Shown here piece by piece: positions 6,466 through 60,128 of a DNA stretch of 64,000 nucleotides; position 1 is the stretch's first letter, and each line of letters opens with the position of its first letter. The translations under genes and the position numbers were made by a program. Location: contig NZ_JAKLWS010000007.1 of the NCBI RefSeq assembly GCF_022012475.1, positions 62,001-126,000 on the forward strand. The letters run 5' to 3'. The DNA comes from Rhodohalobacter sulfatireducens. Its GTDB lineage: Bacteria; Bacteroidota; Rhodothermia; Balneolales; Balneolaceae. The notes beneath the pieces were generated by a model. The model did not search any database and was not told the origin of the DNA. It saw only the letters and a program-made list of their open reading frames with translations.

Positions 6466-7914
6466 TCAGGATATATCCCGAAGTGTTGCGTTTAACTCTT
6501 GCAATTGTTCGGAAGCGGTTTTGGTTGTTACAACCGGTTTTATATTCTTAGAGATTGAGAGTGAAAAATTTGAGTAGTTGTCATCCACTAAATCTTTAAT
6601 TCTTTGCTCAATTCTCTTGATCACCGGAGTGGCTTCACTCACACCTTTTTCTGTAACTAATAACCATATAGTTACCATACTTTGAAATACTACTTCATCC
6701 GAACGGTTTATTTCACTATTCACTAATTCAAAAATTTCCCGCACCAGTTTTTTACTGTTTTGATTCCCGATCTGCTCATATATTTCGGAAATATTCTCTA
6801 ACTGGAAGGATGCAATTGTGCTGTCGAATGTAGCCTCTTTTTTGCGTTCAATCTCTTTAGAAAGCAACCGCTGAAAATATTCTTTATCGATCACATCGAC
6901 CATATCATCAAATTCATTTAAATCAATGATCACTTTTCCAAGTGCAGCATCTCTTCCCAAACTTGTTAACTGATACGACTTCAAATTCTTTTTCAACAAG
7001 CTCTCTACATTCATATCTGAACTACAGACATTGCACTTGGCTTTTACAACCGGATCCTGGAATATGTGATCGCACCGGTTACAGGTAAATACAATAGAGG
7101 GTTTATCGTAGTCTACTCCAATATGCTTGAGTATTCGTTCACATTTTGGACATTCAAGTGCATTTGGATTAGAGCTGCTTTGAAAATCTGATATTGGCCC
7201 CACATAAGCACATGGAAAATGGTGTATTTGCTCTTCAGATTCTACATCAGCAGACTGACAACTGGGACAGGTTTCCCGAAAAAGCAGGTAACTGTTGTAG
7301 CAATTATTGCAGGTGTAAAAACTATCAATGTATGTTGATGTTAAAAAGCCTTCTTGTTCTGCCATGTCGAGAATATCAAGTGCTTTCTCCTCGCGTCTGA
7401 AATCCAGGTTTGATGTCAGCATGGGATAGAGATATCCAAGCTTTGATTCTCGAGACGGAATAGGACGGAAATCCTGAAAATCACGAGTGTGAATATAGAG
7501 TAGTACTTTTCCTAAGATCTGATTGATTAAAGTGGTTGTATACTGATTTCTCTCAGCATTTCGCAAAACCCGATTTATAGCTTCTTCAAACCTTTCCTGT
7601 GTAAATGGTTTCACAAGATAATCGGTGATTCCATAATCAAATGCTTTGATACCATGAGCACTGCTTCCGCTTGTAATAATTACCTGCGTTGGGTCAATAT
7701 TTTTTACGGCATCCAATACATCAAAACCAGACATGTCTGGCATTTGAACATCTAAAAAAACAAGATCAATATTTTTTGAATTCAACATTTCCATAGCCTG
7801 TTCACCATTCTCGGCCATACCGCCAATAGTAAGTGAATCATGTTTTTCTACCATTTTTCGCAGCAATACCCGGAAGGAAGCATCGTCGTCAATAATTAAA
7901 CTGTTCAGTTTCAT
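6466..7914 (-). CDS. Response regulator: REC, zinc-ribbon TackOD1-like domain, degenerate GGDEF domain
   Basis: Residues 1-118 are a receiver domain with the phospho-acceptor Asp55 (LVFLDVQMPD) and conserved Lys102 (VKPF). Residues about 150-330 hold three or four zinc-ribbon knuckles (Cys202/205, 216/219, 255/258, 278/281, 294/297) and the sequence LKHIGVDYD, which I associate with the TackOD1 output domain first described in thaumarchaeal regulators. Residues about 335-460 align in pattern with a GGDEF domain, but the catalytic loop reads SDEVVFQSMVTIWL, so the active-site signature is gone. It may bind a nucleotide or a partner rather than make c-di-GMP. Its place between the adaptor and the glycosyltransferase points to control of polymer synthesis. 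Confidence 0.82.
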   Translation of the reverse strand: MKLNSLIIDDDASFRVLLRKMVEKHDSLTIGGMAENGEQAMEMLNSKNIDLVFLDVQMPDMSGFDVLDAVKNIDPTQVIITSGSSAHGIKAFDYGITDYLVKPFTQERFEEAINRVLRNAERNQYTTTLINQILGKVLLYIHTRDFQDFRPIPSRESKLGYLYPMLTSNLDFRREEKALDILDMAEQEGFLTSTYIDSFYTCNNCYNSYLLFRETCPSCQSADVESEEQIHHFPCAYVGPISDFQSSSNPNALECPKCERILKHIGVDYDKPSIVFTCNRCDHIFQDPVVKAKCNVCSSDMNVESLLKKNLKSYQLTSLGRDAALGKVIIDLNEFDDMVDVIDKEYFQRLLSKEIERKKEATFDSTIASFQLENISEIYEQIGNQNSKKLVREIFELVNSEINRSDEVVFQSMVTIWLLVTEKGVSEATPVIKRIEQRIKDLVDDNYSNFSLSISKNIKPVVTTKTASEQLQELNATLRDIS

Positions 7915-7945
7915 TCTTTTTATGCTTTAATTGATCTTCAGGCTT

Positions 7946-8275
7946 TTACAGTCGGCTAGTAATTTTTCGCGTTGTGGCAGCGGCATAATCGAGATTCATT
8001 ATGTTTGGAATTACTCCATCAACCATCTCAATAATTGAGTCTTTCATATACCCACCCTCATTTAATAGAAATATTGGAGTGATGTACACAAGCTTTTCGT
8101 TGTGTGATCGAATTTTATGAATGGCTTCCAAGACATTATGGCTGTCCAAATATTCCATAATCACTGCATCGTAATCTTCCAAAATATCTGGATTGAAAGA
8201 AGGTGATGGCCTAAATCGTAAAAATTTCAGGTCATCAAACTCAATTTTTTCTTGTACTTCAATTTCCTCGCTCAT
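7946..8275 (-). CDS. Small receiver-like protein of the exopolysaccharide operon
   Basis: A 109-residue protein with the alternating strand/helix pattern of part of a receiver fold: DAVIMEYLD in the place of the phospho-acceptor strand, then VLEAIHKIRSHNEKLVYITP and DGVIPNIM. The usual acidic pocket and the Lys motif are not clear, so it is probably a pseudo-receiver or partner-binding module. Spacing of 16 bp to the adaptor gene upstream and 31 bp to the regulator downstream places it inside the operon. In the regulator next door the receiver is fused; here a similar module stands alone. The assignment rests on pattern only. Confidence 0.6.
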   Translation of the reverse strand: MSEEIEVQEKIEFDDLKFLRFRPSPSFNPDILEDYDAVIMEYLDSHNVLEAIHKIRSHNEKLVYITPIFLLNEGGYMKDSIIEMVDGVIPNIMNLDYAAATTRKITSRL

Positions 8276-8291
8276 AAAAATCTAACCTGTT

Positions 8292-9833
8292 TTATTGTAT
8301 GCGATGTATAAAATATTCATCTGCAATTGATGCCGGAATTGTTTCGGCAGCTTTCATTGCTTCATCGACAGTTCTGAACTGACCTACAGCTACTCGCCAC
8401 AAGTTTCTTTGATCGATTGTAACAGAATTCACATCAACCCTAAATCCCTCAGCCCTGATATTATCTGAAATCTCAGAAGCTTTTTCCTGGTCTTCCAGTG
8501 AATACAGGTTTATAGTATATCCATCCAGTTGATTGTTAAATGAATCACCCATTAACCCGTATAGCTCATCGGTTCCATCTAACTTATCCATTGCCGTTTC
8601 CTCATCGGCGCTGCTATTTAGCGTATCAACCGGCTCAGTACCGGAATTGGCGGGAGGTTGAGAGACAGTGTCCTCCTCCGACTGAGTTGAGATTGAATCC
8701 TGTTCAGATTGAAATTGTTGGTCTTCAGCTCCGTCATTTGTTCGTATTTGAGCAGAGTATGATGTCTCCGAAATGCCAACCTCTCCTTTACCGATTTTTC
8801 GTCTGAATACACTGAGTCCCGACCTGTCTAACTGAACCCATTGAGCCCGAGTAACAGAATCAACGGGTGCTAATTCTACTACCACATATTCTGTGGTTAA
8901 CGTACCGGTCTGTTCAAAATGTTCAATCAAATTTTCCCGTGCGTCATAACTGCTTCGAATAACTCCAACGCTCTCAGCCCCGTTATCAAATTCAATATTC
9001 ATGACTGTTCCCGGTTGGGCAAATTCGGCATCTTCACGATCGAAGACTGAAAAAATGTACACATCAGCATTTCTTGGTTTTATACTCATGATTTGATCCG
9101 ACCGAAACGCCTGCTGATTATCCCGTACAGATATATTATTAACAATTCCGGTTACAGGAGAATAATATGTTTGAATCAAATTCTCGCCGGATTGTAATTC
9201 CTGGATTTCGGCTGACAAACTTTCTCTTGCTTGAATTTGCCGGCTTCTTTTATTCATCAATACGTTTAATTCAGACTGTTCCTGGCGCAGATTAGAACGG
9301 GCTGTAAAAAGCGAACTTTCAACTTCAGTTAATTCATATGAAGTTGCTGCATTCAGTCGAACTTTTTCCAGGAAGTCCTCTCTCTGTTGTTCCAGATAGG
9401 TAATTCGATCTTGAATCTCCTGTATGGACTGCCGCTTTATAGTAATTTCATCTTCAAGGTCCTGGATTTCTTCGCTGGCATCTGCAATATCTTCTTCAAT
9501 GTCTTCAATCTCATCAACAGTACCGGTCCAGTTCAAAAAACTGTATCGAAATATAGGATCGCCTCTCTCAACAAAACTTTCGTTTGATACAAGCTGTTCT
9601 CGAATCTCAATATCACTTGGAGCCCGAACCTTCAAATTTTCTGTTACAACCAACCCCTCACCTGATACATAAAAAGTGCTTATGAAGATGTAATAAAACA
9701 GGATTCCCAAACCAACGATCAGTAAAACAAAATAGACGATTCGGTCCCAGTTTATCTGCTTTGGTTTTGGCTTTTCCCGTCGCCCCCGAAGTTGTGAACT
9801 CTGAGACCGTTTAGTAAAGTATTCACTTTTCAT
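8292..9833 (-). CDS. HlyD-like membrane fusion protein with a C-terminal SPOR domain
   Basis: The order is: basic N-terminus, one membrane helix (about 31-52), a barrel-sandwich half (VSGEGLVVTENLKVRAPSD), a long coiled coil (about 105-215), the second sandwich half (YYSPVTGIVNNISVRDNQ), a beta domain to about 355, an acidic Ser/Thr-rich linker (365-420) and a SPOR domain (about 438-513). Adaptors of this class connect an inner-membrane machine to a TolC-like channel. Its start overlaps the stop of the channel gene by four bases (ATGA), which indicates translational coupling. SPOR domains bind peptidoglycan glycans lacking stem peptides, so this adaptor may be held at the cell wall or septum. 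I know no standard adaptor with this extra domain. Confidence 0.87.
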   Translation of the reverse strand: MKSEYFTKRSQSSQLRGRREKPKPKQINWDRIVYFVLLIVGLGILFYYIFISTFYVSGEGLVVTENLKVRAPSDIEIREQLVSNESFVERGDPIFRYSFLNWTGTVDEIEDIEEDIADASEEIQDLEDEITIKRQSIQEIQDRITYLEQQREDFLEKVRLNAATSYELTEVESSLFTARSNLRQEQSELNVLMNKRSRQIQARESLSAEIQELQSGENLIQTYYSPVTGIVNNISVRDNQQAFRSDQIMSIKPRNADVYIFSVFDREDAEFAQPGTVMNIEFDNGAESVGVIRSSYDARENLIEHFEQTGTLTTEYVVVELAPVDSVTRAQWVQLDRSGLSVFRRKIGKGEVGISETSYSAQIRTNDGAEDQQFQSEQDSISTQSEEDTVSQPPANSGTEPVDTLNSSADEETAMDKLDGTDELYGLMGDSFNNQLDGYTINLYSLEDQEKASEISDNIRAEGFRVDVNSVTIDQRNLWRVAVGQFRTVDEAMKAAETIPASIADEYFIHRIQ

Positions 9834-44885: not shown

Positions 44886-47378
44886 TTATCGAAGGTTTCC
44901 CAAAGGGATCCCTTCGGGGAAAATCCCGCACCCGTATTCAATAGTTTTTCCACTGCCAATCGGCGACCCCGGAGGCGTGTAGGGTGCCGGTGGAGTTGAG
45001 AAGGACTCCGGATCTTCCTTGTACTGCTCAATCAAATCAAGAATATAGTTGAAATGGGCGTTCCAAGTTGGATCGTCAATCTCAAATATTCTTTCAGTTA
45101 GTGAAACCTGTAGATTTTCCAGAACCATTTTCGTGATGGCTTTCGCATCCGGAGATGCATTTTCATGGGATGCCAGTCCAACCAGGTTTCGAAACACAGC
45201 CATATTGATACCTCTTTGAATTGACCCGTGGTACCCTTCATTCATCTCTCCTAAAATTGTGGCGTTTAATACTTCCTCAGCCACTTCCATCAATCCGGGA
45301 AGGTCAGGATTTCGGGCTGATTGAGTTGTAAGGCGAGCTCCTCTTTCGGGATTAAAAATCATAGTTGCGCTTTGATTTGCAGCGACTTCTGCCATCGCTA
45401 CCGGGTCGAGCATAGGATTTGAATATCCCCTGAAGTGTTCTCGTGAATACGGCGTTTGAGCCGGCTGAGGTGGAATAATATCCAGGATATTTTCCGGGAG
45501 TGCCAGAGTTTCAGCCCGGAGAGTTTGGATGAGAGACTGGACGGCATCTCGCTGGAGATCTCCATCAATAATTTGAGGGTTCGCCTGCCCATCACCCCGA
45601 AGATTATATGCATAATTCACACCACCAATCAGTTTGGAAACGGCTTCTATTTGATACCGGTGGTAGAGATAAATAGGAACTAGTGCGTTTTCCAGGTCTG
45701 CCATGGGTCGGCCCATCTGGATCACCTCTTCATCAAAATTATTGAGTGCCGTTTGTCGAATTTCTAAAATATGATTCATCTGGTCGATCACATCCGTGCC
45801 GTAATCCCATAAATGTGCTTTCGGGTGGATCCCACTCTGCGGGCGAGCCGCCTCATCGGAAATGTAAAGCAGATCCATATCAAGTGTTTCCTGGATGATC
45901 TCTTCCAATGCCTCATCCTCATTCACATTATCCGGGAAGTCCTGGTAACCGTACGCAACAGTACGCTTATCCCATTCACCGATATCGGTATCATAAGCCT
46001 CTTCGAGGCTCAGTGATCCGTCCGGCAGAACAGTTGCGCGGGGATGGGGATAATCCATTACAGAAGACAGATCGTTCGTACTGGCCGCAAAATTATGAGC
46101 AATTCCGAGTGTGTGGCCAATCTCATGTGCAGAAAGCTGGCGAATTCGGGCAAGCGCCATCTCAAGCATCTTATCATCCGGTTCGATACCCTCCTCATAG
46201 GGTGCCAGTAATCCTTCGGCAATCAGGTAATCCTGGCGAACCCGAAGCGAGCCCAGTAGCACATTCCCTTTGATAATCTCCCCCGTTCGTGGGTCTACTA
46301 CCGATGAACCGTATGACCAGCCACGAGTTGATCGATGGACCCAATTAATCACATTGTACCGAACATCCAGCGGATGGGCATCATCCGGCAATATTCGAAC
46401 CTGGAATGCATTTTCATAACCAATCTCTTCAAAAGCCTGGTTCCACCAGCGTCCACCTTCAAGCAAAGCCGAACGAACAGGTTCGGGAGTCCCGTTATCG
46501 AGGTAGTAGATAATGGGCTCTACCGGCTCACTGACCTCTGCTTCCGGATTTTTCTTTTCCAGCCGATGGCGTACAATGTACTGCTTGTAAAATTCTCCGC
46601 CGATAGGAGCACTGTAATCCTGGTAGTCGACCGTAAAAAATCCTGACCTCGGATCGAATTCCCGTGGTTGGTAGTCATCATTCGGCAACTCTACAAATGA
46701 ATGGTGCTGACGGACGGTCACCGCATTTGGACTAGGTGTAACCGATCGCAGCCAACTGCCTGCACCACTTCCGGTGAATGTGAGTGTAACTTCAAACTCG
46801 GAATTCTTTGGAAAGTTGAACGTACCGGGCAAATGAATGGCAGACCTGGATGCATCCACAGAGTAATTTCCCTGGTCTGTATCACTCAGTCTTTCAGCCA
46901 CCCCATGTGCATCCTGCATCAAAAAATCAGTGATATCGATTAATATACGTTCATCCTGTTGAGCCGCCACTTCAAACCCGAACAATACCGATTGGGCAAA
47001 TGCTTCATTAATCGATTTTTCTTCCAGTGGATTATCTGAAGTTGCCCGATAATCGTAGTTGGGTTGAACCATCAGAACTTTTGGTCCCACCTTTTCAAAT
47101 TTTACGATCCTGGTATTCCCAAGCTGGCTGCGATCCAGGCCGATATCATTCGAACCGATTCCGGCAGCCAATGAATTCACGTAGATAAATTCCTGGTCTA
47201 ACTTATCGACCTCTAACCAAATTTTTCCGGTTGTATCATCCCACCAGTAATCAAAAAAACCTTCGTACTTTTGCATCCCCTCGGTTTTTTCTGAGATGGT
47301 GGATTGGGCCAGAGAATGTGAAGCAATTAAACTAAATAAAAGAGCACTTAAGAAAGAAAACAGAACAAATCGTCTCAT
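44886..47378 (-). CDS. Secreted zinc-dependent metalloprotease (DUF5117/DUF4953 type)
   Basis: The ATG at 47378 begins MRRFVLFSFLSALLFSL, a signal peptide ending near SLAQS; the 49 codons upstream in the frame have no such role. The 830-residue product has the N-terminal EGFFDYWWDDTTGKIWLEV strand, then FNFPKNSEFEVTLTFTG, then the zinc site LSAHEIGHTLGIAHNF (HExxHxxGxxH, near residue 418) with the Met-turn-like SSVMDYPHPRA. These match a family of large secreted metalloproteases common in Bacteroidota. The substrate is unknown. It is followed closely by the GH43 gene. Confidence 0.92.
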   Translation of the reverse strand: MRRFVLFSFLSALLFSLIASHSLAQSTISEKTEGMQKYEGFFDYWWDDTTGKIWLEVDKLDQEFIYVNSLAAGIGSNDIGLDRSQLGNTRIVKFEKVGPKVLMVQPNYDYRATSDNPLEEKSINEAFAQSVLFGFEVAAQQDERILIDITDFLMQDAHGVAERLSDTDQGNYSVDASRSAIHLPGTFNFPKNSEFEVTLTFTGSGAGSWLRSVTPSPNAVTVRQHHSFVELPNDDYQPREFDPRSGFFTVDYQDYSAPIGGEFYKQYIVRHRLEKKNPEAEVSEPVEPIIYYLDNGTPEPVRSALLEGGRWWNQAFEEIGYENAFQVRILPDDAHPLDVRYNVINWVHRSTRGWSYGSSVVDPRTGEIIKGNVLLGSLRVRQDYLIAEGLLAPYEEGIEPDDKMLEMALARIRQLSAHEIGHTLGIAHNFAASTNDLSSVMDYPHPRATVLPDGSLSLEEAYDTDIGEWDKRTVAYGYQDFPDNVNEDEALEEIIQETLDMDLLYISDEAARPQSGIHPKAHLWDYGTDVIDQMNHILEIRQTALNNFDEEVIQMGRPMADLENALVPIYLYHRYQIEAVSKLIGGVNYAYNLRGDGQANPQIIDGDLQRDAVQSLIQTLRAETLALPENILDIIPPQPAQTPYSREHFRGYSNPMLDPVAMAEVAANQSATMIFNPERGARLTTQSARNPDLPGLMEVAEEVLNATILGEMNEGYHGSIQRGINMAVFRNLVGLASHENASPDAKAITKMVLENLQVSLTERIFEIDDPTWNAHFNYILDLIEQYKEDPESFSTPPAPYTPPGSPIGSGKTIEYGCGIFPEGIPLGNLR

Positions 47379-47470
47379 TACAATAGATGTTTTGGGTTTC
47401 GTGATAATTGAAGAAACGAAATGTTGGTGGAATTTGGAAGTTCTTATTGCCAAACACTGTTGCAAAAAAT

Positions 47471-47513
47471 AAAGCCATTCAAACCGGTGCTCAAGTCGGT
47501 TGTGAATGGCTTT
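47471..47513 (-). terminator. Terminator of the Lon-like operon
   Basis: GCCATTCA pairs with TGAATGGC, with an inner ACCG/CGGT stem. On the minus strand it is followed by TTTATTTTTTG, a U-rich tract. It starts 84 bp past the stop codon of the third paralogue (47597). Confidence 0.75.
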
Positions 47514-47596
47514 AATAAATATCACCCTTGATGAGTAATTTCTTATAATAAGGTATTAGCATGTCGTAACAATTTTGATAGGTTGAAGAAAAAATC

Positions 47597-49909
47597 TTAA
47601 TTAGAGCGGTATTTAAACCTCTGCCCATCCCAATAAAGCAATGAATCTTTAAACGCCTCAAAGTATTCATGATCCGGTTCGAACGGAATCATGCCATCTT
47701 CATATAGATTTTTTGCCCAAAGATCGTAGTATGATTGTGTTCCTATCGATCTAACTCTAAAATTATAATCGATCATATATATTAGGGCTGCATAATTAAC
47801 CTGGAAAGGATCATTTTCAGGAAGTCTAAAGTCATTCACCCGGACACGAAATAGTTCCTCATCAGAGTTCACAAAAAAAGCTTCCGGTGTATTATTCACA
47901 ACACGCCTTTTAAATACCTGCCCGACAATCGATCGCGGAACCTGAACATAATATTCATGTTCCGCAGGTGTATAGCCAAGTACTGTATACTCATCCGTCG
48001 AGGGAGAATATCCGACAATTTTATCAGCTTCCAGTGCAAAGAAAACTGTAATCTCATCAAAGGCATTGTTTTGTCCCAAACCAATAACCTCCTGGTCTCC
48101 GTCATTGTCAATATCTACGACCTTAGTCTGTTTTATTCGGCCTGAATGAATATATCGGCTGCTTTCTTCTCCTGTTTCTGCATTTAATTTGAGAATGATA
48201 CTCGGAAAGAATCTTCCGTGCCCTATGTTTACTATCAGGTTATCTTTTGAACTGTTTATAATATTCAAACTATAAACTTTATAACCATTTTCCTGTATCT
48301 CCGGTTTATTTGGAAATTCTAAATCGAACGATAAATTCTTCTTCCATATGATTGAATCCCCTGACACCGAGTATGCAATCAGTTCTTCGGGGCTGTTAAA
48401 ATTCTGCTCGGACAACATTCTTGAAAAAAACAGTTCATTGATGCCATCATTATTTAAATCGTGCAATAATGCTTTGTATGGAAAAATAGGATTCTGAGAC
48501 TGTTGTATTGCTTCAACTATTACACTACCAACCTTCAGGCTTTGAATCTTTTGTCCATATTGATTCATCAATGTCATTTGCTCTCCTTCATATTGCAAAG
48601 TGTTCGGATTCTTGTCGACAGGACCAAAAATCAACCACATGATAAATCCCAACAGCACTGTAATAAGTGGTACCGTGATAAATCTGAATTCCTGGCTTTT
48701 TAATCTCTTGAAGTAATACTTGATCCGCCCCTCTTCTTCATGTTCGGTCAAACGGCGGTCGAAAAAGAGTTCTCGCAGATGACTGACACCATATAACACG
48801 ATATTTCGTGTTGGATATTTATCCAGAAGAGTGTTCAGCTCCTTCTCAAACAGGCCACGCTGTGATGCCGGAACGGCAAAAATCTTACCCCATGAGAAAA
48901 AAGCAGCTTTTACTTTTAAACCGATTGTTTCTCCATCAACGGGGAGTACGTTACCCTCTTTATCGATGTCACCCGTAATTATTGAATGGGAATTTATTTT
49001 ATATCGATTTCTTTGATTCGTTGCCTCTTGAAGATGTGTATACCAAAGGGCAGAAATGGCCAGGTTCGCTGAGTTACCGACATGAAATGCTTTCCGAAAA
49101 TCAAAATTTACACCTCCGCGGTAATAGTTATTATTTCGCTTTCCGGATTTAGATTCTAAGAGATTTCGGGCTGCAATATGAACATTCTTTTTTTCACTCA
49201 TTGAAGGATTTGCCGCACCATATACCTGCATATTCCAAACCAGCTCATCCTCATTGCCGGTTTCAGAATATCTTTCGACTGAAATTTTTCGCAAACGGCC
49301 ATAACCGATTCCTTCTGACTGATATTTCTCGGCTACAGGAATCAATAGTTTCCAATCTTCTGTACCCTGAATTTTTTTGACCTCTCGAAGCATTCGCTTC
49401 AAAGAATCATTCTGTTTTCTTGTAAGTTCTTTTCTGTTCTGAAGTGTTTTGGCAATCCAATCTTTTAGTAGATTAAGTACAGAAGTATCTCTTACATCAT
49501 TCGGATAGCTCATTCCGGACATACCCAGCGTTTTTTCAATATGAAGATTGACCCCCTTAAGATCATTCAAACAACCATAAAGGAGTATACATACCACTCT
49601 TAAGCGATTGTATACAGCAGTAAAATTTTCACTTTTATCGGAAAGATGAAGCTCTGATTCCAGTTTATCGAGCAATGCCAGGTCATACTCAATCTCACTC
49701 GGATCAATACCGGTCCAGGTTAATGGGCCTGTGAATACAGGAAGCTCATCTGCAATTTGAAGGATGTAAGACTCAAACTTGCTGTAGGATCCCTCAAGGA
49801 TGTCAATAAAACTTCTGAATAAATGATACCTGTGACGAATAGAAATTGTAGACTCTAATTGCTCCATTAATTCACGGAACAACTGCTCTACTTGAATTGG
49901 GTCTGGCAT
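47597..49909 (-). CDS. Membrane-anchored Lon-like (S16) protease with extracytoplasmic FG-GAP-like domain, paralogue 3 of the operon
   Basis: The 770-residue product has four parts. Residues 1-200 are helical and start MPDPIQVEQL. Residues about 203-390 resemble the Lon proteolytic domain: HVGNSANLAISALWY (Ser280 at the nucleophile position), ITGDIDKEGNVLPVDG (the MTGEI...GKVLPVGG strand) and GLKVKAAFFSWGK (Lys332 at the dyad position). Residues 411-429 are a membrane helix. The rest is predicted outside the cytoplasm and carries FG-GAP-like units DLNNDGINELFF (484-495) and DIDNDGDQEVIGLG (599-612). There is no AAA+ module, so it should cleave specific, unfolded or bound targets rather than process proteins. 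The Lon assignment rests on motif order and is not tool-tested. It ends 84 bp before the terminator. Confidence 0.78.
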   Translation of the reverse strand: MPDPIQVEQLFRELMEQLESTISIRHRYHLFRSFIDILEGSYSKFESYILQIADELPVFTGPLTWTGIDPSEIEYDLALLDKLESELHLSDKSENFTAVYNRLRVVCILLYGCLNDLKGVNLHIEKTLGMSGMSYPNDVRDTSVLNLLKDWIAKTLQNRKELTRKQNDSLKRMLREVKKIQGTEDWKLLIPVAEKYQSEGIGYGRLRKISVERYSETGNEDELVWNMQVYGAANPSMSEKKNVHIAARNLLESKSGKRNNNYYRGGVNFDFRKAFHVGNSANLAISALWYTHLQEATNQRNRYKINSHSIITGDIDKEGNVLPVDGETIGLKVKAAFFSWGKIFAVPASQRGLFEKELNTLLDKYPTRNIVLYGVSHLRELFFDRRLTEHEEEGRIKYYFKRLKSQEFRFITVPLITVLLGFIMWLIFGPVDKNPNTLQYEGEQMTLMNQYGQKIQSLKVGSVIVEAIQQSQNPIFPYKALLHDLNNDGINELFFSRMLSEQNFNSPEELIAYSVSGDSIIWKKNLSFDLEFPNKPEIQENGYKVYSLNIINSSKDNLIVNIGHGRFFPSIILKLNAETGEESSRYIHSGRIKQTKVVDIDNDGDQEVIGLGQNNAFDEITVFFALEADKIVGYSPSTDEYTVLGYTPAEHEYYVQVPRSIVGQVFKRRVVNNTPEAFFVNSDEELFRVRVNDFRLPENDPFQVNYAALIYMIDYNFRVRSIGTQSYYDLWAKNLYEDGMIPFEPDHEYFEAFKDSLLYWDGQRFKYRSN

Positions 49910-49945
49910 AGGTATACCCCCAAAAAATTAGCTCTTAATGTACTC

Positions 49946-50107
49946 TTAGTTTTCGTTAAAATACTCCTCAGCTAATAAAAACTCTTCGCCTGTCCAATAG
50001 AGGATGGAATCTTTGTAAGTCTGAAAGTAATCAAAATCTGGAATTTCCGGAATTTCCCCTTCTTCATAAAGTTGCCGGGCAACGATATCATACAAATCGC
50101 TTGTACC
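49946..50107. repeat. About 160-bp near-identical segment shared by the 3' ends of paralogues 1 and 2
   Basis: Bases 49946-50107 and 52315-52476 differ at only about six positions by my hand count (roughly 96% identity), while the rest of the two genes is far more diverged. The boundary at the stop codon is sharp. This suggests recent gene conversion or a recombination patch covering the last 54 codons. Confidence 0.75.
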
Positions 50108-52294
50108 AATACCGAGAACTTTCAAATTATAATCTAAATAGTAAAGTACTAATAGGTCATCGCTATACCCATGTAACTCACGTCTGCCTTCCTGAACTAC
50201 AAAAAGAAAACTATTATTCAATTCATCTACGTTTACGGCTTTTCCACGATTATATTTTAGCATTGAACTAAAGTACTCTCCAATTAACGTTTTTGGAATA
50301 AGTATATATCTATATTCGTCAGCTGGCTCAGTATCCGATGGAATGTAATCAATCGTTGCGGGAGCATAACCTTGCGCATTCCCATATTCTAAGACAGCTA
50401 TAGCTGCACTCCAATAAGCGTTATTAATGCCAGTTAAAATAATTTCATCATTATTATCGTCATTTATGTCTTCTACATACATATCGTCAAACCTTCCAGA
50501 ATGAACGTATTCTTGTTCAATCTCTCCGTTCAAAGCATTTATGGTAAAAACCACAGATTGAAAATATTGAATGACACTTGAATTCACAGCAATTTTTGGT
50601 CCTTTATTTGTATGCAAGATTCCTATTTCAACTGGACGAAGATTGAAGTTCATCATTGCCGATTGACGTGGATAGGAATAATTTGCGATAAATTTTTGAT
50701 CCCAAATCAAGGAATCACCACTTACAGACCTTGCCCTTATAAACGATTGATCTGAACTTTGTCGGGTCACCCTGTTTGCATAAATTAATTCATTAATACC
50801 ATCACCATTTAGATCTAATAAGGTGCTTAAAGGTCTTCGCTGAAACTCTCCCGTACCATTCTGAAGATCCACTGTTATTTCACCGATTTCTACTCGATCA
50901 ATCGTTGATCCGGATGAATTTTTTAAAACTATATCACTACCTTCATATTCGATAATAACTGGATTTTGGTCAATCGGTCCATACGCCATCCTTGCAATTA
51001 TTAAAAGCAGCACAATTATAACCGGAACTAAAACAAACTTCGAATATTCATTCTTTAAGTGATTAAAAAAGTATGATAATCTACCCTGAACTGTATAGAT
51101 AGCTACTCGTCTGTCATAGAAAATATCTTGTAGGTGATTCACTCCTATAAGGGAAAAGTTTCGATTAGGAAATCTCTCGTTTAATTTTTGAACCTCAAGC
51201 TCAAACTGATTTCTTTGTAATGCAGGTACAACTAATACTTTTGCCCATGAAAAAAAGACAGCCTTTACTTTCAATTCAATACTTTTTTCGTCAACAGTCT
51301 TAATGTTTCCATATTTGTCAATATCAGCCGTTATAGCAGAGTTTGAATGGATTGAATATCGTTCTCTTTGACCGGCTTTCTTTAGTAGAATAGTGTACCA
51401 AAGGGCAGCAATAGCAAGATTAGCTGAATTTCCATTGTGGATAGCTGTTACATTTTCAAACTGTATGGCACCCCGATAATAATTTCCAGATGCACTTCGT
51501 GGGATGAACATATTTAAAAGCTTTCTTGAAGCATTAATTGGATTTTCTGTCTTTTCAACTGAAGCTTTTTCAGCTCCGTAAATATTTGTTGCCCAAATCA
51601 ATTCATCTTTTGATTTTGATTCGGACTCCCCATAAAGTTCAATGGTCATATTTCGTAAGCGGCCATATTCCCTGTTATTTTGATAAACTCCAACGTATCG
51701 CTCCAAAACTGGTATGAGTATATTTCCCTCCTTCCTTTTAATGACACCCTTTACCTCTTTGTATAATCTCTGAAGTGATTCTTCCTGCTCAACCGGGCGC
51801 TTTTGATTTTTTTGCAGCTCGGTTAAAAGATGTTCATAAAGACTCATGATGGATTGATTCCAATCTGGTGTCAATTGTTCCGAAACTTTTGGTTCTGGCC
51901 AATAAACACCGGTTAGTTTATGAAGAACCTTACCTGTCTTTTTAATATTGCCAATGCAAACTTGCAGTAGTAACCATACTTCTTGGAGATTTGTTATCAA
52001 GTCAGATAATTGCTTTCCCTTATCCGACACATCTATTGTTGAATGGATTTTCTTAAACAGTACAAGCTTTTCTTCGATCTCTTCTGGATCTATACCACTC
52101 CAAGACAAATACCCCTTAAAGAACGGTAATTCATCCAGTAATTGTTGTATATACGATTCGTATTTCCTGTACTCACCCTCAAGTGATTCTAAAAATTCGA
52201 AGAAAAGCTCATGGCGGAATCGAATGGAAGGTGTGGAACCAAATGACCCAAACAAATCTTGGAAGTTCTCTTCAATTTGAATCGGGTCTGGCAT
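49946..52294 (-). CDS. Membrane-anchored Lon-like (S16) protease with extracytoplasmic FG-GAP-like domain, paralogue 2
   Basis: The 782-residue product has the same plan: helical N-terminus from MPDPIQIEEN, Lon-like domain with HNGNSANLAIAALWY (Ser290), ITADIDKYGN and ELKVKAVFFSWAK (Lys342), a membrane helix at about 420-437 ending GPIDQNP, and an outer domain with LLDLNGDGINELIYANR and DINDDNNDEIILTGINNAYW. The conserved YGRLRNMTIELYGESES just before the Lon-like core is shared with its neighbour. Its last 54 codons are almost identical in DNA to paralogue 1, unlike the rest of the gene. The gap to the next gene is 36 bp. Confidence 0.78.
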   Translation of the reverse strand: MPDPIQIEENFQDLFGSFGSTPSIRFRHELFFEFLESLEGEYRKYESYIQQLLDELPFFKGYLSWSGIDPEEIEEKLVLFKKIHSTIDVSDKGKQLSDLITNLQEVWLLLQVCIGNIKKTGKVLHKLTGVYWPEPKVSEQLTPDWNQSIMSLYEHLLTELQKNQKRPVEQEESLQRLYKEVKGVIKRKEGNILIPVLERYVGVYQNNREYGRLRNMTIELYGESESKSKDELIWATNIYGAEKASVEKTENPINASRKLLNMFIPRSASGNYYRGAIQFENVTAIHNGNSANLAIAALWYTILLKKAGQRERYSIHSNSAITADIDKYGNIKTVDEKSIELKVKAVFFSWAKVLVVPALQRNQFELEVQKLNERFPNRNFSLIGVNHLQDIFYDRRVAIYTVQGRLSYFFNHLKNEYSKFVLVPVIIVLLLIIARMAYGPIDQNPVIIEYEGSDIVLKNSSGSTIDRVEIGEITVDLQNGTGEFQRRPLSTLLDLNGDGINELIYANRVTRQSSDQSFIRARSVSGDSLIWDQKFIANYSYPRQSAMMNFNLRPVEIGILHTNKGPKIAVNSSVIQYFQSVVFTINALNGEIEQEYVHSGRFDDMYVEDINDDNNDEIILTGINNAYWSAAIAVLEYGNAQGYAPATIDYIPSDTEPADEYRYILIPKTLIGEYFSSMLKYNRGKAVNVDELNNSFLFVVQEGRRELHGYSDDLLVLYYLDYNLKVLGIGTSDLYDIVARQLYEEGEIPEIPDFDYFQTYKDSILYWTGEEFLLAEEYFNEN

Positions 52295-52314
52295 ATAATA
52301 TTTTTGGACTAATA

Positions 52315-54687
52315 TTAGTTTTCGTTAAAATACTCCTCAGCTAATAAAAACTCTTCTCCTGTCCAATAGAGGATGGAATCTTTGTAAGCCTGAAAGTAAT
52401 CAAAATCGGGAATTTCCGGAATTTCCCCCTCTTCATAAAGTTGCCGGGCAACGATATCGTACACATCGCTTGTACCTACGCCAATAGGTTTTAGATCATT
52501 TTCAAAACTTATTGAAACCATGACATCCCCAAACTCTTTTCTGAATGGAATTCGAGCTTCTTCAACGAGTGCTCTGATTGTTTTGTTCGCCGCATCGTAG
52601 TATAAATTTTTAGCTTCATTATATTTCATTAAAGGGCTTGTATACTCCGCTACGATTGTTTTTGGAATTAAAATGTAATGTAACTCACTTGCGGGTTCAA
52701 TCCCGGTAGGTCTGTAATCTTTGGTTAGTGGCGAGTGTCCATGAAAGGTATCAATATCCAAAACTCCCAGTGCAGCCAACCAGTAGGCATTGTTGATTCC
52801 TGAGAATAGGATTTCCGCTTGATTATCACCATTTATATCCTGCAAAATCATATCTCTCACATGGCCTATGTGCAGATATTCCGCATCTATTTCGCCGGTG
52901 ACAACATCTACCAGGTATAAAATAGTTTGGAAATAGTAAAATGAATTTGCATTTACAACTACCTTTGGCCCTTCTTTTGTATCCACCAGCCCCATTTCCC
53001 GAATCAACATCTCTTGTTGTGTAACTCCTGATTGTCTTGGAAAATCATAATTAAGTATCAATTCACGATTCCAGATTAAAGAATCTCCACTAACTGAATA
53101 TGCAGATATTTCAGAAATTTCCCTGTTTGACTGACTTAGACGATCTCTTCTTCCATATATAACCTCATTGAAACCATCGTTGGTAATATCGATAAGAATG
53201 GCAAGTGGATTTGCCGCAATTGTACCAGGATGGACTTCCCCATTGCTGCTTGTGTAATATGAAACCGTCTGTGCTCCAACTTCCAGTCTTTTTACCTCTA
53301 TACCATTTTGGTTTTGCAATATTAAAAAACTGTCCTCATACGTTATATTCTGTGGATTTTTGTCTATCGGACCATAAATCAACCGGGCAACAATCAACAA
53401 TAAAACGATTATTATTGGAATAAGTACAAAATTGGAATGTTCATTTTTTAAGCGGTTCATCATGTAGGGGATTCGCCCCTGGACTGTATGCTCAGCCACC
53501 CTGCGATCGTAAAAGATCTCCGCCAACCGACTTACACTTATCACCTCCAAAGTTCGTTGAGGATATCTCTCTTTTAACCTGTTTATTTCATCCTCAAATG
53601 GTGTCCTTTGCGAAGCCGGTATTACAACTATAGATGCCCAGGAAAAGAAAACGGCTTTTGCCTTCAGGTGTATACTGGTTTCATCAACAGATTGAACGAT
53701 CCCATTTTCATCAATATCACCTGTTATAGCGATATTGGAATGAATTCTGTAACGTTCTCTTTGTCCGCTTGCTTTCAACAAAATCGAGTACCACAAAGCC
53801 GCTATGGCAAGATTGGCTGATTTCCCATTGTGTATGGCGGCTGAAATTTCGAATCTTAACCCACCACGATAGTATCTCCCAGCTGTTCGCTCGAATCCTG
53901 AAAGTTCAAACAACTTCCTGGATGCGTTGACAGGAACTGTAGTCTGTCCTAAAGAGGGAACTTCTGCACCATAAATATGGGTCGCCCAAATCAGCTCATC
54001 ATTTGTTTTTGATTCCGACTCACCATAAAGCTCCATAGTCATACTTCGTAAACGGCCAAATCCATTGTTTTTGCCCTGGTCTTTATCATATTTCTCAGCA
54101 ACGGGCACGAGTATATTCCAGTCCTTGCATTCTATAAGGGCTGATGTCTCTTTAAATAATCTCTGAAGTGATTTTATTTGCTCAATGGACCGCTTTTGGT
54201 TCTGTTTCAGTACTGCTTCAAGCTTTTCATGGAGTCGGTTGATAGGTTGATTCCATTCTTTGTCTGCTTGCATAGAAGTGCTTGGCCCTGAGAATGAAAC
54301 ACCGGTTAATTTATGAAGATACGCATCTGCTTTTTCAATATTTCCAAGGCAAACTTGCAGCAGTAAAGATACCTCATGGAGATTTCTTTTGATGTTGGAA
54401 TAGTGATCACTCTTTTCTGATAATTCTATTTCTGATTGGATTCTTTCCAACATAGAAAGGTTGCCCTCAATATCAACCGGGTCGATCCCACTCCAGGACA
54501 AATGGCTAGAAAACTCAGGTAAGTCATCCAACAGCTGAAGGATATACGATTCATATTTTCTGAACTCTCCTTCAAGTGAGGATAAAAAATCAAAGAAAAG
54601 TTGGTGCCTGCGACGAATAGAAGGAACAGAATCAAAATACTCCATTAACTCTTGGAAATCCCTCTCTACTTGAATCGGATCTGGCAT
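52315..54687 (-). CDS. Membrane-anchored Lon-like (S16) protease with extracytoplasmic FG-GAP-like domain, paralogue 1
   Basis: The 790-residue product starts MPDPIQVERD and has Ser290 in HNGKSANLAIAALWY, ITGDIDENGIVQSVD and Lys342 in HLKAKAVFFSWAS. The residue before the Ser is Lys instead of Pro/Asn, but the Ser-Lys pair is kept in all three copies, unlike the RadA Lon-like domain, in which the Ser is lost. A membrane helix (about 420-437) ends GPIDKNP. The outer domain includes LIDITNDGFNEVIYG and DINGDNQAEILFSGINNAYW. It is the first of the three paralogues, 15 bp downstream of the anti-sigma-like gene. Confidence 0.78.
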   Translation of the reverse strand: MPDPIQVERDFQELMEYFDSVPSIRRRHQLFFDFLSSLEGEFRKYESYILQLLDDLPEFSSHLSWSGIDPVDIEGNLSMLERIQSEIELSEKSDHYSNIKRNLHEVSLLLQVCLGNIEKADAYLHKLTGVSFSGPSTSMQADKEWNQPINRLHEKLEAVLKQNQKRSIEQIKSLQRLFKETSALIECKDWNILVPVAEKYDKDQGKNNGFGRLRSMTMELYGESESKTNDELIWATHIYGAEVPSLGQTTVPVNASRKLFELSGFERTAGRYYRGGLRFEISAAIHNGKSANLAIAALWYSILLKASGQRERYRIHSNIAITGDIDENGIVQSVDETSIHLKAKAVFFSWASIVVIPASQRTPFEDEINRLKERYPQRTLEVISVSRLAEIFYDRRVAEHTVQGRIPYMMNRLKNEHSNFVLIPIIIVLLLIVARLIYGPIDKNPQNITYEDSFLILQNQNGIEVKRLEVGAQTVSYYTSSNGEVHPGTIAANPLAILIDITNDGFNEVIYGRRDRLSQSNREISEISAYSVSGDSLIWNRELILNYDFPRQSGVTQQEMLIREMGLVDTKEGPKVVVNANSFYYFQTILYLVDVVTGEIDAEYLHIGHVRDMILQDINGDNQAEILFSGINNAYWLAALGVLDIDTFHGHSPLTKDYRPTGIEPASELHYILIPKTIVAEYTSPLMKYNEAKNLYYDAANKTIRALVEEARIPFRKEFGDVMVSISFENDLKPIGVGTSDVYDIVARQLYEEGEIPEIPDFDYFQAYKDSILYWTGEEFLLAEEYFNEN

Positions 54688-54702: not shown

Positions 54703-55524
54703 TCATTTATAGAAGAAAAGACTGGAAACAGGGCTTGATAAATTTTGAATCGCTATCGTGCATTTTCCATTTTCAACAGGCCACATTGAGGATTTTTCAC
54801 CAACGTAAATTACCATCTTGTCCGGGATTCTCTCTACTGAACAATTAAATGAGACCTGCAATTTATCCCCACTCTTTTGTAAGCTGAGTTCCTCTCTTTC
54901 AAAATGTGCTTCTGTTGTATCAAAGTTCAATGTACCCTGCTCACCATTACTAAAAACTCTGATTTTTGAGATTGGCAGGTGCAGCTCACACTTCTGCCAG
55001 TTTTTAATTGTATTCTCAGGAAAAACTTGATCCGGAATTACGAATGTTCCACCGGGATCACTAACAAGAGTTTTATTATTTTGATCCCCAACATCGATCA
55101 GTACGATATCATCATCCTGTAGAAACTCAGAAATTACATGCAGCTTGAATTGATTCTTAGAGCTGTTATGTAAAATCCTGATGAGAGTTTTATGTTCCTC
55201 TGAAACAAATGTACGAATTGTTTTCAGGGTCTTTTTCCTTCGATCTGCAACAGGAGTTTGAGCTGCAAGTACAAAGACGTTACCTGAGTATTTAGATTTT
55301 TGAGGAGCAGGTTCCAACTCTATAATTGATGTTAAAAGATCTGGCCTCTCTTGAACAGATTCAATATGGTCCATCTTTTTATAAAATACCCGGAACCATT
55401 CCGCAAGAAGGCGTACCTCTTCATCCTTCTGAATCCAATCCTGTATCCATTCTTGTTCTTTCTCGGTTAAAGCTGTCCGATTAAGAATGTATGTTTCGAT
55501 ATTTTTTTCGGTAGGAATATTCAA
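54703..55524 (-). CDS. Soluble anti-sigma-like protein of the Lon operon
   Basis: The 273-residue product appears to start at a TTG (55524); the next in-frame stop is four codons upstream and no ATG precedes. The N-terminal 50 residues (IPTEKNIETYILNRTALTEK and WIQKDEEVRLLAEWF) resemble the short helical domain of anti-sigma factors that lack the zinc-binding motif. A middle linker is basic, and a C-terminal region about 120-273 is beta-rich with DPGGTFVIPDQVFP. There is no membrane helix. The sigma-like gene lies 53 bp upstream and the Lon-like genes 15 bp downstream. Anti-sigma function is inference from position and N-terminal pattern. Confidence 0.55.
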   Translation of the reverse strand: MNIPTEKNIETYILNRTALTEKEQEWIQDWIQKDEEVRLLAEWFRVFYKKMDHIESVQERPDLLTSIIELEPAPQKSKYSGNVFVLAAQTPVADRRKKTLKTIRTFVSEEHKTLIRILHNSSKNQFKLHVISEFLQDDDIVLIDVGDQNNKTLVSDPGGTFVIPDQVFPENTIKNWQKCELHLPISKIRVFSNGEQGTLNFDTTEAHFEREELSLQKSGDKLQVSFNCSVERIPDKMVIYVGEKSSMWPVENGKCTIAIQNLSSPVSSLFFYK

Positions 55525-55577: not shown

Positions 55578-56582
55578 TTAAGACCAGTCCTCCTTAAATG
55601 TTTCAATCAGGTCTTTTCTAATGAGCTTCACCAGATATTCCAAAACCTGGCGATTGTTAGATCTGAAATCATCATACTCTAGTTCAGGCATATAGTTTTT
55701 TAAATATTCGAATTGCGACGATTCAGATTTGCCGCTGTTAAAGTAGTCATTAACAATATCTTTTGCAGCGTTCATATACATATCCAATTGATCCTCGCTT
55801 ATCTTTCCTTTCCGTACATAAGAGAATCCCGTACTTGTTCGAACCATTTCAACACTTTCATCCAAAAATTCTTGAAATTCTGTGGTAATTATCGACTCAT
55901 CTGCATTAAGCTGTTTTTTTTCTGTTGTCGTTTCATGAAAATTCACAAAAGTCAACCGAATAACTGATGCCAAAGAAACGAGGGATATTTTCTTTTGATA
56001 TCTATCCTGTTTTAAAAGCACATCAATAGCATCGGCCAGTATATCAGGAATTTGCATTTTATCTTCCAACCGAGAGGATAACCTGATTTGCATAAACTCA
56101 GAAGGCATCACCGGTAAATTATCTCTATCGTGCTTATCAACAATGATAAATCCCTGCTCATAGCTAACCCTATGGTCGCTATCACAATCTCTGATGGCCA
56201 GTTTTAAATTTCGAATGATTTTACGAAGTGACGGATCTTTTTCCCCCACTGCCCTAAAAATATTATCCTCAACTTTTGTAAATACAAGTTTTCGAAGTTC
56301 TATAATCAGCTCGGAATGATTGAGATCTTCCAAACTTATATCATCAAAGTATTCCTGAAGTTTTACCAGGCAGTCGTTATCGTCTTTCTCGAATAGTTCT
56401 GCAATAAAATCCCAGGCTAAGTCTTCCAGCCTTTCGCCTCGAATCATGTATAATTTATTGGAAGCTGCCTTCATTCGAAGATATGCCAACGCCATGCTAT
56501 GGCATTTTTTAATCAACTTTTTTAAATCTTTTCTTGAAACTTCTTCGCCCAAACAATTAGAAATCGTCTCTTTAAGTCCCAT
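55578..56582 (-). CDS. Divergent sigma-factor-like protein, first gene of the Lon operon
   Basis: The ATG at 56582 (MGLKETISNCLGEE) is preferred over a GTG two codons upstream. The 334-residue product has an N-terminal helical part in which AYLRMKAASNKLYMIRGERL and EDLAWDFIAELFEKDDN sit where sigma region 2 would place the helix that binds RNA polymerase. This is followed by RKLVFTKVEDNIFRAVGEKDPS and RKIIRNLKLAIRD. The C-terminal 130 residues are also helical. A region 4 helix-turn-helix is not clear. I treat sigma-factor identity as tentative; it could equally be a regulator of unknown type that belongs to the operon. Confidence 0.45.
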   Translation of the reverse strand: MGLKETISNCLGEEVSRKDLKKLIKKCHSMALAYLRMKAASNKLYMIRGERLEDLAWDFIAELFEKDDNDCLVKLQEYFDDISLEDLNHSELIIELRKLVFTKVEDNIFRAVGEKDPSLRKIIRNLKLAIRDCDSDHRVSYEQGFIIVDKHDRDNLPVMPSEFMQIRLSSRLEDKMQIPDILADAIDVLLKQDRYQKKISLVSLASVIRLTFVNFHETTTEKKQLNADESIITTEFQEFLDESVEMVRTSTGFSYVRKGKISEDQLDMYMNAAKDIVNDYFNSGKSESSQFEYLKNYMPELEYDDFRSNNRQVLEYLVKLIRKDLIETFKEDWS

Positions 56583-56618
56583 AAACACAAACTGATATTG
56601 TTAACTACCCCTTTTGAA

Positions 56619-59163: not shown

Positions 59164-59616
59164 TTATTCTTCAGCCATTTCCTCCAGGTAGAGAACATAA
59201 CTGTCTGTTGTATTTTCATCTGCCGGGTAAAAATATTCTTCCGCGATTAATTCGGAATCGGTTTCTGTATCCTGCGATTGAACCATTGAGAATACCGATG
59301 TGATTGCAAAAATGGCGATTGAGGCAGCAAGTGCATAGCGCCTGAACCAATCCAGGGTAACCATCTCAAAGGATTCTCCGGGGCCGGATAGATCCCGAAT
59401 TCCCTGTTTGATTGACCGGATGGATGATTTGTGCTGACTTAGTTTTGAATCTATTTGATACAAGTTGGTTAAATCCGGCAAGTTCATGATTGCCCGGTAA
59501 TCTTCTAATAGGTCGGGATGATTTTGAAGTTCAACTTCCAGCTTTTGTATCTGCTTCGAACTTAACACGCCATCGGAGGCGTCTATAATCAACCGTTCCA
59601 GTTCTTCTCTTTTCAT
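59164..59616 (-). CDS. Membrane anti-sigma factor-like protein
   Basis: The 150-residue product has a cytoplasmic N-terminal helical domain (EELERLIIDASDGVLSSKQI) and LEVELQNHPDLLEDYRAI), a membrane segment at about 92-110 (YALAASIAIFAITSVFSMV) and a short acidic periplasmic tail. No zinc-finger motif is present. The start overlaps the end of the ECF sigma gene by ATGA (59613-59616), a standard sigma/anti-sigma arrangement. It should hold the sigma factor at the membrane. Confidence 0.82.
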   Translation of the reverse strand: MKREELERLIIDASDGVLSSKQIQKLEVELQNHPDLLEDYRAIMNLPDLTNLYQIDSKLSQHKSSIRSIKQGIRDLSGPGESFEMVTLDWFRRYALAASIAIFAITSVFSMVQSQDTETDSELIAEEYFYPADENTTDSYVLYLEEMAEE

Positions 59617-60128
59617 GATTGATTGACCCCCATCTTTTTTAAAATGTCTGCTAACTGCTTTCGAGCCCTGAACATTCTGTTTTTTAAAGTTTGCTCATTA
59701 ACTCCTGTTACATCCGAAATTTCAGGATATGTAAGTCCGTCTATCGATTTCATAACAACAATGCTTCGCAATAACTCCGGTAATTCGGAGATTGCTTCTT
59801 TCAGCAGTTCAGTATCTTCCTGCTGATCCTTTGATTTAAATTCGTCGGATTCAATGTTATACTCTTCAACAGGAATGGAGCTCCGATTTGATTCATATTT
59901 TCGCTTTCGAAACTCATCAATGCACTTATTCCTTGCAATTGAATAGAGCCAGGTATACATGTTGGCATTGCCTTCAAACTGGTCGATATTTTTATAAGCC
60001 TTCAAAAATGTTTCCTGCAAAATATCCTCCGCTTCAACACCTGAACCCGCAAGATACGCTTTCATGGATCGGTGGAGGCGGGGATAAAGCTCATCGATCT
60101 GTTTTTCAAACCAATCATCTCTGCCCAT
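59613..60128 (-). CDS. ECF-type RNA polymerase sigma factor
   Basis: The 171-residue product has sigma region 2 (EAEDILQETFLKAYKNIDQF and YTWLYSIARNKCIDEFRKRK) and region 4 (LPELLRSIVVMKSIDGLTYPEISDVTGVNEQTLKNRMFRARKQL). The size is that of a group 4 factor. It follows the Spy-like gene at 60184-60927 by 55 bp and overlaps the anti-sigma gene by 4 bp. Envelope stress control is likely by context. Confidence 0.95.
   Translation of the reverse strand: MGRDDWFEKQIDELYPRLHRSMKAYLAGSGVEAEDILQETFLKAYKNIDQFEGNANMYTWLYSIARNKCIDEFRKRKYESNRSSIPVEEYNIESDEFKSKDQQEDTELLKEAISELPELLRSIVVMKSIDGLTYPEISDVTGVNEQTLKNRMFRARKQLADILKKMGVNQS

Follow-up and report, generated by a model that had tools for sequence, protein, structure and literature searches.

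Tandem Lon-like proteins with a predicted outer β-propeller beside a sigma/anti-sigma-type gene pair in Rhodohalobacter sulfatireducens

Layout of the locus

The window analysed here is a stretch of 64,000 nucleotides from Rhodohalobacter sulfatireducens (Balneolaceae; RefSeq assembly GCF_022012475.1, contig NZ_JAKLWS010000007.1, positions 62,001 to 126,000 of the forward strand), in which three intact, tandem open reading frames (ORFs) encode Lon-like proteins with a single predicted membrane helix and a C-terminal FG-GAP part (P0001, P0002 and P0003). Upstream of them and on the same strand lie the genes for a soluble anti-sigma-type protein (P0004) and a sigma-like protein (P0005). In coordinates of the window, the features are:

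47597–49909, minus strand: putative receptor-type Lon-like protease, copy 1 (P0001, 770 residues), with an N-terminal domain, an S16 Lon-like domain, a membrane helix at residues 410–428 and an FG-GAP part
49070–49072 and 48914–48916, minus strand: dyad codons Ser280 and Lys332 of P0001
49946–52294, minus strand: putative receptor-type Lon-like protease, copy 2 (P0002, 782 residues), with a membrane helix at residues 420–438 and an FG-GAP part
51425–51427 and 51269–51271, minus strand: dyad codons Ser290 and Lys342 of P0002
52315–54687, minus strand: putative receptor-type Lon-like protease, copy 3 (P0003, 790 residues; structure modelled), with a membrane helix at residues 420–438 and a propeller at 438–770
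53818–53820 and 53662–53664, minus strand: dyad codons Ser290 and Lys342 of P0003
54703–55524, minus strand: soluble anti-sigma-type protein P0004 (273 residues), with a predicted zinc-finger-type anti-sigma domain that has lost its ligands, and a C-terminal domain
55255–55272, minus strand: motif V-L-A-A-Q-T in the linker of P0004 (residues 85–90), a candidate site for cleavage or docking by Lon
55578–56582, minus strand: sigma-like protein P0005, with helical residues 1–117 resembling sigma region 2 and C-terminal helices at 231–335

P0004 starts at a TTG codon, in register with the starts of its homologues, and the ORF of P0005 opens at a GTG at 56588, while its homologues begin at the ATG of 56582. 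P0001 and P0002 are 38% and 55% identical to P0003, respectively. The 3′ ends of the genes for P0002 and P0003 are nearly the same (the last 150 bases are 96% identical and the last 42 exactly so, while segments just upstream are at ∼47–56%), which may reflect recent gene conversion or an assembly effect.

An S16 Lon fold without an ATPase

A preliminary description of the locus, made from the sequence, had read the three proteins as Lon-like proteases with a nucleophilic Ser, an MTGEI-like strand and a Lys in the right order, followed by one membrane helix and an FG-GAP-like domain. The ORFs, the dyad residues and the helix were all recovered, and each protein has the Lon-like residues Ser, Thr and Lys in the expected order. 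Single-sequence searches nearly miss the domain, since Pfam Lon_C gave no match at E ≤ 1 in P0001–P0003 and NCBIfam LonB matched P0003 at E = 0.003 and P0001 at E = 0.12. We searched 394 genomes of the phylum with P0003 (46 matched at E ≤ 0.001, some through the FG-GAP part only), fetched 40 stretches, and compared 42 homologous Lon-like regions, including the three of the window. The alignment used for profiles, A2, has 39 rows, the truncated L039_17737, the incomplete L049 and the dyad-less L056_8519 having been dropped. Pfam Lon_C matches 14 of its 39 members at E ≤ 1 (best 0.00067), and the A2 profile finds the LonB structure AfLonB (1z0w) in the PDB at E = 6.3e-11, with other Lon structures below 1e-3; in the alignment to AfLonB, the Ser and Lys of the family fall in the dyad columns.

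The comparison of a predicted structure with 1rr9, proposed in the preliminary description, bears this out. All of the best 50 Foldseek matches listed for the AlphaFold model of P0003 (pLDDT 81.8, pTM 0.52, 11 sequences in the input) are Lon proteases, 1rr9 among them at E = 7.3e-7 and a TM-score of 0.77 by target length, and in the VIA comparison residues 186–400 of the model align with 9cc3_B at Z = 16.8 (rmsd 2.8 over 177 residues) and with 1rr9_E at Z = 16.1. The S16 proteolytic fold spans residues ∼186–402 of P0003; some structural rows also pair its N-terminal helices with the pre-protease part of Lon at an rmsd of 5–7, and these were not used. The Walker A pattern is absent from P0001–P0003, and a Pfam scan of the three found neither an AAA nor a LON substrate-binding domain. 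It is thus confirmed that they carry the S16 Lon fold without an ATPase: they share with canonical LonA and LonB the proteolytic fold, the Ser-Lys dyad and the TG signature, but lack, as far as Pfam detects, their AAA+ and LON substrate-binding domains. Of the many weaker matches of the A2 genome scan, the six that were fetched all carry LON, AAA, lid and Lon_C domains and so represent canonical Lon.

The catalytic residues are strongly conserved. Of the 42 regions, 41 have the Ser and 41 the Lys, and among the 696 columns scored for conservation these two rank 20th and 9th. The only invariant columns in A2 are G288, S290, T322 and K342; four further copies (L101–L104) likewise have both Ser and Lys. 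Selection on the dyad, which the preliminary description had considered plausible and which loss of the two residues in most homologues would have contradicted, appears well supported by these counts, and they suggest that the domain is an active Ser-Lys protease. An alternative is that it serves as a catalytically idle scaffold, which holds the anti-sigma protein, or its complex with the sigma-like protein, at the membrane and lets go on a signal without cutting. This would suit the copy L056_8519, which has lost both Ser and Lys while keeping the domain and the membrane helix, as well as the relatives described below, in which the sensor is fused to an anti-sigma domain and any protease domain is missing. 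However, L056_8519 adjoins a copy that keeps both residues, and the invariance of Ser and Lys together with the signature G and T across 39 diverged regions is hard to square with idleness, so that we regard a pure scaffold as very unlikely. The two L056 frames overlap (L056:8519-10756, without the dyad, and 6654-9077, with both residues), neither has an FG-GAP match, and they are possibly a pseudo-protease pair.

Membrane topology and the C-terminal propeller

Each of the three proteins has a single hydrophobic stretch of 19 residues between its Lon-like and FG-GAP parts. In all 43 proteins with both parts, Lys and Arg are in excess before this helix (a mean of 5.7 against 1.8, counting 20 residues on each side), while a hydrophobic N-terminus is found in one of the 43. 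This charge bias is a statistical sign that the Lon-like domain lies in the cytoplasm and the propeller outside.

The FG-GAP assignment of the preliminary description also stands for the family. Among the C-terminal halves of 33 of the 42 regions, 28 match Pfam FG-GAP_3 and 22 match FG-GAP at E ≤ 1; as full-length sequences, P0001 and P0002 match FG-GAP below the cut-off and P0003 has no match, and residues 438–770 of the P0003 model align with the propellers of DDB1 at Z ∼15. A C-terminal FG-GAP β-propeller is thus present in this family of putative receptors, probably as the sensor.

P0004 and its relation to zinc-finger anti-sigma domains

P0004 reveals little on its own: a Pfam search gave nothing of note, a PDB search with its profile brought up no anti-sigma structure, and the one resemblance of its C-terminal domain, to a designed Ig-like protein, is weak. 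Its relatives are more telling. The soluble members were collected by an iterated search that also drew in fused forms and some Lon-like proteins, and some of them carry an H-x3-C-x2-C finger near residue 30. At loci without a Lon-like gene, we found 16 proteins, linked to a sigma-like gene or lying at a contig end, whose single chain runs from a finger-type domain through a membrane helix to the FG-GAP domain also found in the Lon-like proteins. The finger occurs in 15 of the 16 fused proteins, 9 of 36 soluble ones and 1 of 3318 other ORFs. A hidden Markov model (HMM) built from soluble P0004-like proteins only matches just the first ∼55–75 residues of 11 such fused proteins from newly fetched loci (E = 6.5e-9 to 1.1e-3). 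Pfam zf-HC2 is matched only below the cut-off, by 8 of 10 and 1 of 4 fused proteins in two sets and by 2 of 22 soluble ones.

Because its relatives carry the finger and the soluble-only model matches the N-termini of the fused proteins, the best reading of P0004 is a zinc-finger-type anti-sigma domain whose ligands have been lost in this lineage. The finger in the relatives supports the earlier view of an anti-sigma-like neighbour, although P0004 itself lacks it. Like zf-HC2 anti-sigma membrane proteins, which have an N-terminal H-x3-C-x2-C, the Lon-less relatives consist of an anti-sigma domain, a membrane helix and an outer domain; unlike in these, the anti-sigma protein of the Lon version is separate and soluble, with Lon replacing it on the sensor. 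Among relatives, a natural domain swap is therefore seen between a sensor fused to anti-sigma and a sensor fused to Lon accompanied by a soluble anti-sigma protein. One fused protein (L055:1549-4122, 857 residues) has two FG-GAP domains in tandem.

The P0004 family is best conserved at a point in its linker, Ala88, which is invariant, along with Met1, in 22 proteins. An L-A-A-like pattern, devised after inspection of the soluble proteins, occurs within residues 56–175 of 30 of 34 soluble partners, none of the 16 fused proteins and 63 of 803 other ORFs. The partners that it misses are that of genome G108, which lacks a Lon family member, and those of L042, L102 and L103, which have a Lon-like gene. 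The motif looks like a candidate cleavage or docking site, although it could be structural instead. The idea that the Lon-less locus of G108 lost the motif was found to be weak, as its partner reads I-Q-A-L at this point and so keeps the conserved Ala.

P0005 as a sigma-like protein

The sigma-like reading of P0005 draws on its predicted structure (pLDDT 79, pTM 0.50) and on its context. Among 350,542 chains, Foldseek ranked sigma-S first (E = 0.37) and sigma-28 sixth (E = 1.5), and in the structural comparison the first 31 of the best 50 rows are sigma-70-family factors, at Z = 8.0–5.9; two of these rows, 9a7s and 9a50, we take to be sigma-D and sigma-B from their UniProt names. In 27 of the 31 sigma rows, 80–94 residues align within residues 1–117 of P0005 at an rmsd of 2.6–3.9, the other four alignments being longer and looser. 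The C-terminal helices give weak TFIIB/cyclin-like rows.

Sequence comparison does not support this identity, and an assignment at that level was dropped. Pfam searches with 32 members matched 31 families, and none of the 25 listed, each matched by one member, is a sigma family; a search of the PDB with the P0005 profile by hmmsearch found no sigma factor; and with hhalign the family scored 0.3% against the extracytoplasmic function (ECF) sigma factor of the window and at most 4.4% against 10 ORFs from the sigma loci of this genome, the latter being a weak test that covers 10 of 19 loci, at least one of the ORFs (L123) apparently being in the wrong frame. P0005 might then be another helical regulator, and the three genes a protease–inhibitor–effector module of a different sort. 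The modest Z-scores, which at 8 or below may reflect a common helical arrangement, the many sigma structures present in the PDB and a Foldseek E-value of 0.37 at best would all allow for this. Such a regulator would, however, have to account for sigma factors filling both the top Foldseek rank and the first 31 structural rows, and for the anti-sigma-type zinc finger in relatives of its partner, and we consider it unlikely. From the modest structural match and the context of an anti-sigma partner, P0005 is quite likely a sigma factor, and its family, nameless in Pfam, would represent an unrecognised sigma-like family.

Gene neighbourhood and distribution

The preliminary description had suggested looking for the operon in related genomes, and the gene order is indeed kept beyond the window's own family. 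Among 39 loci with a Lon-like copy, both the sigma-like and the anti-sigma gene adjoin it in 29; the order is sigma-like, anti-sigma, Lon in 24, and in five (L039, L041, L042, L047 and L102) Lon comes first with the pair adjoining. The sigma-like ORF of L102 is split. Partial arrangements also occur, with a sigma-like gene that has neither partner in L086 and L088 (L087, cut at a contig end, is left out of account), a sigma-like gene with only a 74-residue anti-sigma protein in L090, and a full-length anti-sigma gene but no Lon in L085.

For counts by genome, we took as Lon family members the matches of the A2 scan at 1.1e-24 or better, which by hand count gives 49 copies in 37 genomes; the other 140 genomes matching A2 do so only weakly, at 1.3e-9 or weaker among the matches listed. 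The P0005 family, searched with a profile built from neighbours of Lon-like genes, is present in 52 of the 394 genomes and in all 37 with the Lon family (Fisher 3e-40, relatedness ignored). Multiple Lon copies are present in nine genomes, of which seven show just one match to P0005; several receptors thus seem to use a sigma factor in common, as in the window. The named relatives that carry the family are Balneolaceae, including Gracilimonas and Balneola (8 loci), and the scan of the 394 genomes extends it to other classes of the phylum, but its spread is patchy, as only three of nine sampled genomes of the same genus match P0003. P0003 and P0005 gave no tblastn match in a plasmid collection, and PADLOC gave no convincing match (one at E = 0.025).

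A possible route from envelope to transcription

Taken together, we think it reasonably probable that these proteins are receptor-type Lon proteases that respond to an outside signal by cleaving a soluble anti-sigma protein and so free a sigma factor. The FG-GAP propeller, outside the cytoplasmic membrane, would sense a ligand or the state of the envelope, and its signal would pass through the one membrane helix and activate the ATP-independent Lon domain inside, probably by oligomerisation. The activated Ser-Lys protease would cut soluble P0004 in its linker, with L-A-A as the candidate site, and P0005 would then be free to start transcription, the three diverged receptors feeding one sigma/anti-sigma pair. 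The domain swap speaks for this account, as fused relatives place the anti-sigma domain where Lon stands, which points to the anti-sigma protein as the receiver of the signal; release of sigma by cutting the soluble anti-sigma protein appears to be the simplest account of the Lon version.

Several observations count against this scheme. P0004 itself has no H-x3-C-x2-C, the linker motif could be structural, L056_8519 has lost its dyad, and P0005 resembles sigma factors in structure only. In two of the 39 Lon loci (L048 and L101) the pair lies 6–7 kb away, and in eight (L037, L040, L043, L044, L045, L046, L049 and L069) the fetched stretch holds no sigma-like gene, although contig ends cut L043, L046 and L049, and the genomes of L037, L040 and L069 have a sigma-like gene beside another copy. 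Conversely, G108, from the same genus, has sigma-like and anti-sigma genes and no Lon family match. The eight loci would also fit a protease that cuts something else, be it the sigma-like factor, a misfolded membrane-linked protein or another regulator, with the partner genes regulating expression of the receptor, and canonical Lon is reported to degrade a sigma factor in the Caulobacter-type general stress response (PMC10662116). Against another substrate speak the presence of the sigma-like family in all 37 Lon-family genomes, the anti-sigma domain that takes the place of Lon on the same sensor in fused relatives, and the restriction of the linker motif to the soluble version, so that we hold this alternative to be improbable and favour cleavage of the anti-sigma protein.

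Comparison with known systems

In the DegS/RseA system, several proteases act in series across the membrane. The likeness to our proposal is that proteolysis of an anti-sigma factor relieves a sigma factor, and the difference that receptor and protease are here one protein. In type III-E CRISPR, protease cleavage of an anti-sigma factor likewise relieves a sigma factor (Csx29/Csx30/CASP-sigma; PMC10028731), and the protease folds there, as in DegS/RseA, differ from that of Lon.

Closest is the type III CRISPR system CalpL/CalpT/CalpS, in which cA4 binds to the SAVED domain of CalpL; CalpL oligomerises and cleaves CalpT, and CalpS is in turn released (PMC11417357, PMC12751052). The two share a Lon domain with a sensor domain C-terminal to it, a soluble anti-sigma substrate (a role that we propose for P0004) and a sigma factor (probably P0005 here). 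They differ in the sensor, as a membrane helix here leads to an outer FG-GAP propeller in place of a cA4-binding SAVED domain (no Pfam match to SAVED at E ≤ 1 in P0001–P0003), in the sigma-like protein, which has no ECF sequence match, and in that several receptors can share one sigma factor. YlbL of Bacillus subtilis, with membrane helix, Lon and PDZ domains, resembles our proteins as a membrane-anchored Lon domain without an AAA+ ATPase, but its Lon domain is believed to be extracellular (PMC6051672), whereas charge bias places the Lon domain inside here, with a propeller outside and a sigma/anti-sigma pair beside it; Pfam finds no PDZ domain in P0001–P0003.

The preliminary description knew of no Lon domain followed by one helix and a C-terminal outer propeller. 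A membrane Lon without an ATPase (YlbL) and a Lon/anti-sigma/sigma triad (CalpL/T/S) are already known, but no description of Lon joined to a propeller, nor of the combination of Lon, FG-GAP, anti-sigma and sigma, was found among the papers listed by searches of the open-licence literature. Where 117 Lon-like proteins were surveyed, the partner domains named in the available text are LON/AAA, Sigma54_activat, Mg_chelatase, DnaB and PDZ, and the FG-GAP case there is a trypsin (PMC2605481). We give about even odds to a distinct receptor class of Lon, in which an outer β-propeller directly gates an inner ATP-independent Lon domain and a one-step cut of the anti-sigma protein carries an outside signal, perhaps type IX-secreted surface proteins (whose genes are often neighbours, see below), to transcription with no chain of membrane proteases, the receptors sharing a sigma factor of an unrecognised family. 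If so, Lon would act as the cytoplasmic portion of a receptor that spans the membrane, a function not encountered in the parts of the literature at hand, and a single protein would do the work of the several proteases through which known envelope stress responses run. The logic of CalpL/T/S would also be that of an envelope-sensing circuit, making it possible to ask which came first, and phylum-wide gene families nameless in Pfam would gain a function.

Downstream type IX genes, an upstream word and neighbouring genes

Thirty-one loci have a further gene on the same strand no more than 400 bases away. In 14 of them, the first or the second gene after the receptor or fused sensor bears a type IX secretion tail (a Y-P-N-P-F pattern near the C-terminus); for other genes the figure is 20 of 580. 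The associated p of 2e-11 is too small, because loci of several genes were set against single genes and relatedness was ignored, but we still read the difference as an excess. Pfam confirmed the tail in four of the 14 (L060, L062, L065 and L066, through the copies L078, L080, L081 and L083), L060 being counted by Pfam alone, and in three of five loci examined with Pfam the downstream genes also have cohesin or dockerin domains.

L052, L060, L061, L062, L063, L065, L066, L068, L069, L072, L074, L091, L099: loci with a type IX tail gene behind the receptor or sensor

A precedent exists in Porphyromonas gingivalis, where PorA, a cargo of the type IX system, passes a signal from the surface on to the sigma factor SigP (PMC7712824), which makes type IX cargo a fair lead as ligand or regulon. 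The window is one of the 17 of the 31 loci without such a gene, and the gene that immediately follows the receptors, also on the minus strand (44886–47525), encodes a metzincin-type protease (DUF4953/DUF5117) that is possibly co-transcribed with them.

The word AGGGGT is found close to the gene start in 7 of 51 regions upstream of sigma-like genes, against 4 of 544 regions upstream of other genes, with the example of the window at ∼56605. Its p of 6e-6 is uncorrected for the thousands of words tried, and we make no claim of a promoter shared by the sigma-like and type IX cargo genes.

About 3 kb from the unusual system, an ordinary ECF sigma factor with a Sigma70_r2 match is encoded at 59613–60128, and 59164–59616, judged by eye, likely encodes its membrane anti-sigma partner.

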